Positions 37,772-39,095 of a stretch of DNA of 39,095 bases are shown in pieces (within the stretch, counting starts at the first letter, position 1; each line of letters opens with the position of its first letter). The DNA comes from Gammaproteobacteria bacterium (GTDB lineage: Bacteria; Pseudomonadota; Gammaproteobacteria; JACCYU01). The stretch lies in NCBI GenBank assembly GCA_013696315.1, contig JACCYU010000226.1:1-39095 (forward strand). The letters run 5' to 3'. The notes beneath the pieces were generated by a model. It ran no database searches. It was given only the letters and a program-made list of their open reading frames with translations, and was not told where the DNA came from. The position numbers and the translations under genes were made by a program.

Positions 37772-39095
37772 TCAACGGCAGCTTCGCAGCAAGGTGCTTT
37801 CGATGAGCGCATCGCGCCACGTTTGTGCCATCTGGCGATAACCCGCCGGGTTCGGATAAAGCACGCCATGAGAGTCCATCATGTCGATTAGCGCGTGATC
37901 AATCACCATAACCTTGTGGGGCCCACGCGCGGTGGTCTCACGCCCCGCCGCCATCGCCGCCAGTCCGTCGCTGAACTGTTTCCAGCCCGGTAAAGTCGCG
38001 AGGCTGCCGACCGGCGCGGTCACCACAACGGAAACGTGATTGCCGCCAGCACTGGCTTCCCAGCGAGCGATCTCGTCGAGAACTGCGAACACGCCCGCGA
38101 CGCCATCGGCGATATGGCCACGCTCGATCTGTAGCAGAACCACGTCCGCCGGATGCGTGGTCAACCATCCGTAGATACCGTCCGTACCGTCTCCGCGCCT
38201 GCCATAGGCGAGCTCGGTCAACGTCCAGCCGGGGTGGGCCTCGTGATCCGCGTCGATATCAGTCAGCCCGATGCCCGCGGACCGGGACCCGACGAAGTCG
38301 ACGCGGTAGTCGTCCGCCGCCAGCACCGCTTTCAGCGCTTGCCGGTACCCGACTCGGGGCGCAACCGATGGCAATTGCCGCGCAGCGTCAATCACGCCGG
38401 CGGTGGTCGCACCGCCCAGCGCCATTAGCCTTGACTCGAACATTAACCTTGCGCTCCAGCGCGCCGTCTGCCCGGCGCCGACGACTTCATACGTAAAGCG
38501 GTCACTAACGACGTGGGTGGCGGGATGCGGCATGTAGGCAAATTGCCCGGTAACCGCGTCGCGCAGGGATACACTGCCGCTGCGCCCGTCACTCATCAGT
38601 CGATAAAGCGTCGGCCCGGGTGATTGAGCGCCGCCCGCGGACAGGTTTCCGGCCGTGGTACCGACATGCGACACCACCCGGCAAATCTCGCCTGACGTGC
38701 CCGCGGCCAATACCGTCACCCTCGCGCGATTGGACGTGCGTCCACGGTCGTCTTTCACCGTGTAATAGAACGCGTCGCCGAGTTTAGTGCTCGCGTTGCT
38801 CCGCACATAGCTCACCGCGCCATTCGCATTCGCCCACGCGACGCCGTTACGCGGCTGCGTCACGATATCGACCGTAGCCGGATCGAGTCGCCCTCGAAAC
38901 GCTGTGTCGTTGCGGAGCACCTCGATCATTAATGGCGCGGTCCCGCTCGCGGGTTTGACGGCTGCGCTGCTAACCGTGCTCAAACTCACGGCGGCGACGG
39001 CGGGGCCGCCACCGCCAACATCGTCGCCGGCATTGGGTGACAATAGCTCTTCCGGCGGTGGCGGCGGTGGCGGCTCTTCCGGCGGTGGCGGCGGT
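37772..39095 (-). CDS. Partial surface/secreted protein: Pro-Glu repeat, two cadherin-like domains, SGNH-like domain
   Basis: The gene enters from the right edge, so its N-terminus is missing. The visible part starts with a Pro-Glu repeat (two PEE-type units). Two bacterial cadherin/Ig-like domains follow: about 35-112 with VLRNDTAFRGRLDPATVDIV and AFYYTVKDDRGRTSN, and 128-205 ending DRFTYEVVGA (numbered from the TTG at 39043). The last 215 residues follow an SGNH/GDSL hydrolase plan (VDFVGSRSAG, HEAHPGWTL, PADVVLLQI, YPNPAGYRQMAQTW). However, the usual GDSIT is LGGATTAG, the GxND block reads IERGHIADG, and the DxxH block has Tyr in place of His, so the catalytic residues appear to be lost. 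It is probably a cell-surface or secreted binding protein. Confidence 0.72.
   Translation of the reverse strand, partial: PPPPPEEPPPPPPPEELLSPNAGDDVGGGGPAVAAVSLSTVSSAAVKPASGTAPLMIEVLRNDTAFRGRLDPATVDIVTQPRNGVAWANANGAVSYVRSNASTKLGDAFYYTVKDDRGRTSNRARVTVLAAGTSGEICRVVSHVGTTAGNLSAGGAQSPGPTLYRLMSDGRSGSVSLRDAVTGQFAYMPHPATHVVSDRFTYEVVGAGQTARWSARLMFESRLMALGGATTAGVIDAARQLPSVAPRVGYRQALKAVLAADDYRVDFVGSRSAGIGLTDIDADHEAHPGWTLTELAYGRRGDGTDGIYGWLTTHPADVVLLQIERGHIADGVAGVFAVLDEIARWEASAGGNHVSVVVTAPVGSLATLPGWKQFSDGLAAMAAGRETTARGPHKVMVIDHALIDMMDSHGVLYPNPAGYRQMAQTWRDALIESTLLRSCR
39051..39094 (-). repeat. Pro-Glu coding repeat at the window edge
   Basis: On the minus strand a unit of proline codons (CCG/CCA) followed by GAA GAG occurs twice: seven prolines and Glu-Glu, after another Glu-Glu that follows at least five prolines. 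The unit is 27 bases long where complete. It encodes a stiff, acidic linker or wall-spanning stalk and may continue beyond the window. Confidence 0.8.

Follow-up and report, generated by a model that had tools for sequence, protein, structure and literature searches.

A putative gammaproteobacterial envelope lipoprotein whose CE3-type SGNH domain has lost its catalytic residues

What does a domain do that keeps the fold of an SGNH hydrolase but has its catalytic residues replaced? The question is raised by a gene at one end of the DNA analysed here (the window, 39,095 nucleotides), which is one entire contig (C226) of the 280-contig assembly of a gammaproteobacterium (G000). A minus-strand frame enters at the contig end, continues open to its stop codon and corresponds to the 3' part of a gene (Table 1). 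A previous description made from the letters alone (hereafter the sequence-only reading) took the product for an SGNH domain carried by cadherin-like domains and a Pro-Glu stalk, possibly a surface carbohydrate-binding protein made from an esterase.

The Pro-Glu repeat is real and was scored as a tandem repeat at 39053-39095. The domains described as cadherin-like stand as Ig-like domains, with Big_9 covering residues 52-128 of the 440 in the Pfam scan, and the cadherin-like Pfam models themselves stayed below cut-off in these 440 residues. Pfam gives the SGNH domain no name at all; a GDSL match was absent from its scan, and a paralog on contig C8 of the same genome does match.

Table 1. Features of the gene in the window
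Feature	Positions	Strand	Basis or remark
Gene, 3' part	37772..39094	-	440 codons + stop; N-terminal part outside the window
Pro-Glu repeat, hinge in mid-protein; contig break falls inside	39044..39095	-	ORF and repeat
Big_9 bacterial Ig domain	38711..38941	-	Pfam, E 1.3e-9
Second Ig-like beta domain, immediately before the SGNH domain	38438..38701 (approximate limits)	-	predicted model
CE3-type SGNH domain without catalytic residues, 224 aa	37775..38446	-	sequence and structure match
Ala codon at the catalytic Ser site (GGATTAG vs GDSITxG)	38408..38410	-	alignment to CE3 relatives
Block II oxyanion Gly (HPG), kept	38228..38230	-	alignment
Gly codon at the block III oxyanion Asn site (IERGHI vs IGTNDI)	38117..38119	-	alignment
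His common to all three orthologs, beside the old Asp site; rare in active relatives	37868..37870	-	
Gly codon at the catalytic Asp site	37865..37867	-	alignment
Tyr codon at the catalytic His site; Tyr in 3/3 orthologs	37856..37858	-	alignment

Solved structures were searched with the SGNH domain alone and then with the family profile. The best relative was the CE3 esterase CtCes3-1 (2VPT), with E 1.4e-6 for the domain alone and E 3.7e-30 for the profile, whose match spans the whole domain. The predicted model also had its best structural match in 2VPT (Z 19.6, rmsd 2.8, 191 residues), followed by the CE3 esterase TcAE206 (5B5S, Z 18.6), the best match outside CE3 being TesA (Z 16.1). The SGNH fold pattern that had been read from the letters is therefore kept, as an alpha/beta/alpha fold of the CE3 type. 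The model has a mean pLDDT of 66.5, and its SGNH domain lies mostly at 63-90 by block, with some weaker stretches and residues 254-259 below 50; confidence in the domain is thus only moderate, so that the fold is trustworthy and side-chain sites cannot be judged. By sequence, the domain keeps DFVG...DAD, the residues of the CE3 calcium loop, a motif given as DFVG-Xn-DxD in the part of the review PMC9487903 that deals with this loop.

The same alignments bear out that the Ser of GDSIT, the Asn of GxND and the last His are replaced, by Ala, Gly and Tyr respectively, and the catalytic Asp is also replaced, by Gly. Block III reads QIERGHI where CE3 relatives have HIGTND, and block V reads GVLYPN where they have DGLHPN. 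With these changes the oxyanion hole loses its Asn and GTN loop, and the oxyanion Gly of block II is the sole residue of the catalytic machinery left. Neither this Gly nor the retained calcium-loop residues were mentioned in the sequence-only reading. A scan of genome contigs returned one ortholog, judged to be that of a sister genus (G002), and 38 remote, mostly actinobacterial relatives. Comparisons were made on the domains of the fetched loci that matched a profile of A1 with at least 30 bits, which, after removal of near-identical copies, numbered 90. The block III Asn is absent in 13 of these. Among the other 77, Ser is present in all 76 that have a letter at the site, Asn and His in 77/77 each, and Asp in 68/77. 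Since these relatives keep Ser, Asn and His, the joint replacement of Ser, Asn, Asp and His goes beyond background variation.

Two orthologs share the losses. The SGNH domain of the ortholog in the same genus (G001) is 78% identical and its four sites read A/G/G/Y, as in the window; that of the sister-genus ortholog is 49% identical and reads G/K/S/Y. All three orthologs have the same Tyr in place of the catalytic His, the same new His at two positions close to the block V Asp, and the same Tyr, Arg and Asp in the loop preceding the central strand. The two His and the Tyr near the old active site, group-specific and conserved in all three orthologs, might belong to a catalytic set that has moved or changed, one in which a conserved His or the Tyr takes part, for example; the domain would then have stayed an enzyme. 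We consider this very improbable, given the loss of the oxyanion-hole Asn and GTN loop and the absence of any Ser, Thr or Cys among the positions that are conserved in all three orthologs but rare in active relatives. On the latter ground a relocated set was rejected, and the search for a conserved Ser-Asp-His set elsewhere in the domain, which the sequence-only reading had named as evidence against itself, did not overturn that reading.

The sister-genus gene is whole on one ORF and encodes a lipobox (LPAC), two PKD-type domains, a Pro-rich stretch, one Ig-like domain and the SGNH domain. A search with its N-terminal part found the matching half at the very end of another contig of the window's genome (C157, E 7.8e-58), and the same split was seen in the same-genus relative, where the N-terminal half lies at the very end of contig C94. 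Both halves end in runs of Pro codons, and the partner contigs start their half in a like repeat; the gene order beside the C-terminal half is the same in the two genomes. The C157 half carries a lipobox (LAAC) and two PKD-type domains. Lipoboxes were read by eye in the intact ortholog and on C157 and C94, the last two being the presumed other halves. The two contigs of the window's genome, C157 and C226, most likely carry one gene of at least 224 + 440 codons (at least 664 residues), broken by the assembler at the hinge, and the N-terminus that had been noted as missing would then be the one with lipobox and PKD-type domains at the end of C157. The joined gene would encode a lipoprotein starting MRKLPALIYKLISILPAIALAAC. 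The assembly of the same-genus relative has its break in this repeat too, flanked by the same genes, which makes a frameshifted or chimeric contig end unlikely. As the missing half precedes the Pro-Glu repeat, the supposed stalk is not at the base of the protein but forms a hinge in the middle of the lipoprotein. Of the proposed surface location, attachment to the cell envelope is supported by the lipobox on the intact ortholog and on C157, and exposure to the outside would be a further step.

The assemblies of both species break inside the same Pro-rich coding repeat (window, 39053-39095; same-genus relative, L033 11098-11182), which in the relative has a 24-base unit and 3.5 copies. In both genomes an RND efflux gene (ACR_tran) precedes the N-terminal half, lying 117 bases upstream on the same strand in the window's genome; the sister-genus gene has unrelated genes around it.

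Between the two same-genus genomes the SGNH domain showed a dN of 0.124, a dS of 0.348 and a dN/dS of 0.36 (bootstrap 0.23-0.54). The ratio was 0.18 for the N-terminal half, 0.09 for the RND gene, 0.14 for a BCCT transporter gene, 0.30 (0.19-0.44) for the adjoining amidotransferase gene and 0.16 for the domain of the B-type paralog. The constraint on the domain is therefore real, but weaker than on several neighbours. A pseudogene was rejected, the frames being open in three species with dN/dS at 0.36. A related reading is a domain on its way out, under weak constraint, whose residue losses are signs of decay; the ratio exceeds those of the RND, BCCT and B-type paralog sequences, and the same-genus ortholog has lost seven residues. 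We regard such decay as unlikely, because the whole interval is well under 1 and shares part of its range with the amidotransferase interval, the frame stays open in three species, and away from the active site the domain retains conserved positions to the same degree as active enzymes do.

This last comparison used positions conserved in at least 75% of the active set, catalytic sites left out, with those within four residues of a catalytic site counted as near. The domain in the window has lost 8 of the 16 near positions, against a mean of 1.9 in active gammaproteobacterial relatives (n=29), and 7 of the 39 positions elsewhere, against a mean of 6.2 in the same relatives. Lost in all three orthologs are 7/16 near and 3/39 elsewhere (p 0.004). 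With 2, 3, 4 and 6 residues counted on either side p was 0.047, 0.030, 0.004 and 0.075; because p varies with this distance, the clustering of losses around the catalytic sites, and with it a rebuilding centred on the old active site, is suggestive.

A tree was built from 55 of the 90 domains, with 35 mostly actinobacterial ones omitted and the four catalytic columns removed. In it a single branch separates from the rest the 13 domains lacking the block III Asn, among them those of the window and its orthologs. This group has a support of 84/63 and appears in 85% of 200 bootstrap trees, which we take as moderate support. Ten of the 13 also lack Ser and six lack His, so that the branch holds stages with loss of Asn only, of Asn and Ser, and of all. 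Loss of Asn needs one change on the tree and losses of Ser and His four each; on the simplest reading Asn therefore went first, and a single origin of the Ser loss is unsupported. The idea that the protein was made from an esterase is well supported by the CE3-type fold, by the active-looking C8 paralog and by membership of this branch of the family.

The branch also has a common start. The motif C-x-[FVW]-V-D after the lipobox was found in 9/9 Asn-less domains with a readable N-terminus on the same ORF and was absent from the remaining 77. The script used finds a lipobox-like stretch in 51 domains, these nine and 42 of the 77. On their other contigs, the N-termini of the window's gene and its same-genus ortholog read CGFVD, which brings the motif to 11/11; the remaining two are unreadable because one gene has its start at a contig end and the other borders a gap. 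Because one of these unreadable genes (G285) falls among them, the rows with the motif alone do not form one side of a branch (two changes).

A second Asn-less paralog of about 927 aa (GSEN; C57 of the window's genome, L025 2738-5518; C103 of the same-genus relative, L028 2659-5445) has lost the DxD of the CE3 calcium loop; at its Ser site one species has Ala and the other retains Ser, which makes this loss a recent one. Two adjoining lipoproteins in G197 (L102 546-3680 and 3790-8151) carry Glu in place of Ser and His in place of Asn, and keep Asp-His. Searches across the taxonomic order of G197 and that of G212 led to the genomes already retrieved at family level. Among 72,556 plasmid records only three distant matches were found, and spread by plasmids was rejected.

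Seven of the 13 Asn-less genes lie in polysaccharide loci. Five of them, at four loci of one genus (f89), stand upstream of a Wza-type exporter gene (called as Poly_export by Pfam at two loci and by eye at two), accompanied by chain-length and ABC-2 export genes; the other two, B-type paralogs, adjoin a gene that by eye resembles a UDP-glucose dehydrogenase gene. The remaining six, including the gene in the window and both orthologs, lie elsewhere, and no polysaccharide locus around this gene was found in the window or around its relatives. At the exporter loci the slot is occupied by lipoproteins of about 1,200-1,370 aa with an Asn-less SGNH tip and many Ig/cadherin-like repeats, the latter from Pfam on L106 and L107 only (L131 1952-6067, L132 7210-10908, L106 8957-12595, L107 6848-10552). 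A fifth genome (G370, L133 7-1380) has in the same slot an SGNH domain of the active type (GDSIT, GTND, His), which the tree places with the active branch. The active-looking C8 paralog (L026) carries Big_9, and in the loci of active paralogs of three genomes a hexapeptide-type acyltransferase gene is present (G000, L026 10510-11226; G002, L027 5794-6516; G206, L103 2267-2983), which is compatible with an acetylated polysaccharide as substrate.

With all catalytic groups lost and the rest of the fold kept, the SGNH tip probably grips a polysaccharide rather than cutting it, and of the functions considered glycan binding is the likeliest. Our best explanation, which we hold with about even confidence, is an envelope lipoprotein whose CE3-type tip lost all four catalytic residues and binds polysaccharide non-catalytically. 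The full protein would comprise the lipobox, two PKD-type domains, the Pro-rich hinge, two Ig-like domains and the tip. Its lipid would hold it in the outer membrane, and the tip, at the end of a lipid-anchored and hinged arm, would hold a polysaccharide. This ligand would probably be an acetylated exopolysaccharide, either the cell's own or one from its environment, and would be bound in the former substrate cleft, now relined with the conserved Tyr and His.

The best precedent for such use of a cleft is the CtCE2 esterase of Clostridium thermocellum. In the sections of PMC2661963 on this enzyme, its cleft also binds cellulose and cellohexaose, aromatic residues in the cleft are essential to binding, the S612A mutant binds cellohexaose about 8-fold tighter than the wild type, and H791A weakens binding about 20-fold. 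In the branch described here the change from Ser to Ala was made in evolution and a Tyr stands at the old His position. Carbohydrate binding is thus compatible with the family, with the CtCE2 precedent and with rebuilding confined to the old active site. Counting against it, the gene and its two orthologs lie outside polysaccharide loci, and the CtCE2 His aids binding, yet our domain has Tyr there.

Alternatively, the SGNH domain would serve as a folded cap for an adhesin or spacer of the cadherin/PKD type; function would reside in the Ig-like stalk, and the cap would bind some protein or have no ligand. The PKD and Ig-like domains make up most of the protein, the fold core is kept with the active site free to change, and SGNH folds have been reused without catalysis before, as in the SGNH-like OSK domain of Oskar described in part of PMC7250577. 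The replacements are, however, not random, the Tyr at the His site and two new His being identical in three orthologs, and the relatives are sugar esterases, often in polysaccharide loci; we therefore rate a cap as possible but clearly less probable than glycan binding.

For the branch as a whole a wider proposal can be made, more tentatively and with only slightly more confidence than we give to a cap. In the gammaproteobacterial lipoproteins that start with C-x-[FVW]-V-D and lost the Asn, which would form a distinct branch, stepwise loss of the Asn, then the Ser and then the His may have converted a polysaccharide O-acetyl esterase into a protein that tethers or reads acetylated exopolysaccharide made by the cell itself. 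It would work alongside the acyltransferases and still active esterase paralogs encoded in these loci. The literature searches turned up no account of proteins of this kind. Pseudoenzymes are common, but in this branch an active site was lost to different degrees on one scaffold, and some of these stages occupy a single conserved position next to a polysaccharide exporter, so that a switch from cutting a sugar to holding it can be put to a direct test. Should the tips prove to bind exopolysaccharide, the proteins would represent a type of matrix anchor, one that family-name annotation would overlook or mislabel.

Among known systems, the CE3 esterases CtCes3-1 and TcAE206 resemble the domain in fold, in sequence profile along its whole length, in the calcium-loop residues and in the block II Gly; they differ in that Ser, Asn, Asp and His are all replaced in the latter, and in that it sits on a lipoprotein with PKD and Ig-like domains, whereas the CE3 enzymes treated in the relevant part of PMC9487903 go with a dockerin or CBM1. 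Active SGNH lipoproteins of exopolysaccharide loci (the C8 paralog, L026; G206, L103; G102, L105) have a similar tip; a lipobox was recognised by eye in the G102 protein, in one of the G206 copies and in the C8 paralog, and Ig-like domains are shared as far as Pfam was run, with Big_9 in the C8 paralog. They keep GDSIT, GTN and His and lack the C-x-[FVW]-V-D start. CtCE2, like the tip proposed here, uses an SGNH cleft for non-catalytic binding, which a single change from Ser to Ala improves; as portrayed in the CtCE2 sections of its source, it differs in keeping a Ser-His dyad and activity, in belonging to CE2 and in being appended to a cellulase. The OSK domain is without catalytic residues and binds RNA. 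It is found in insect germ plasm and combines an SGNH-like fold with a non-esterase role, according to the portion of PMC7250577 concerned with Oskar; unlike our protein, it is eukaryotic and intracellular and has no Ig or PKD stalk.
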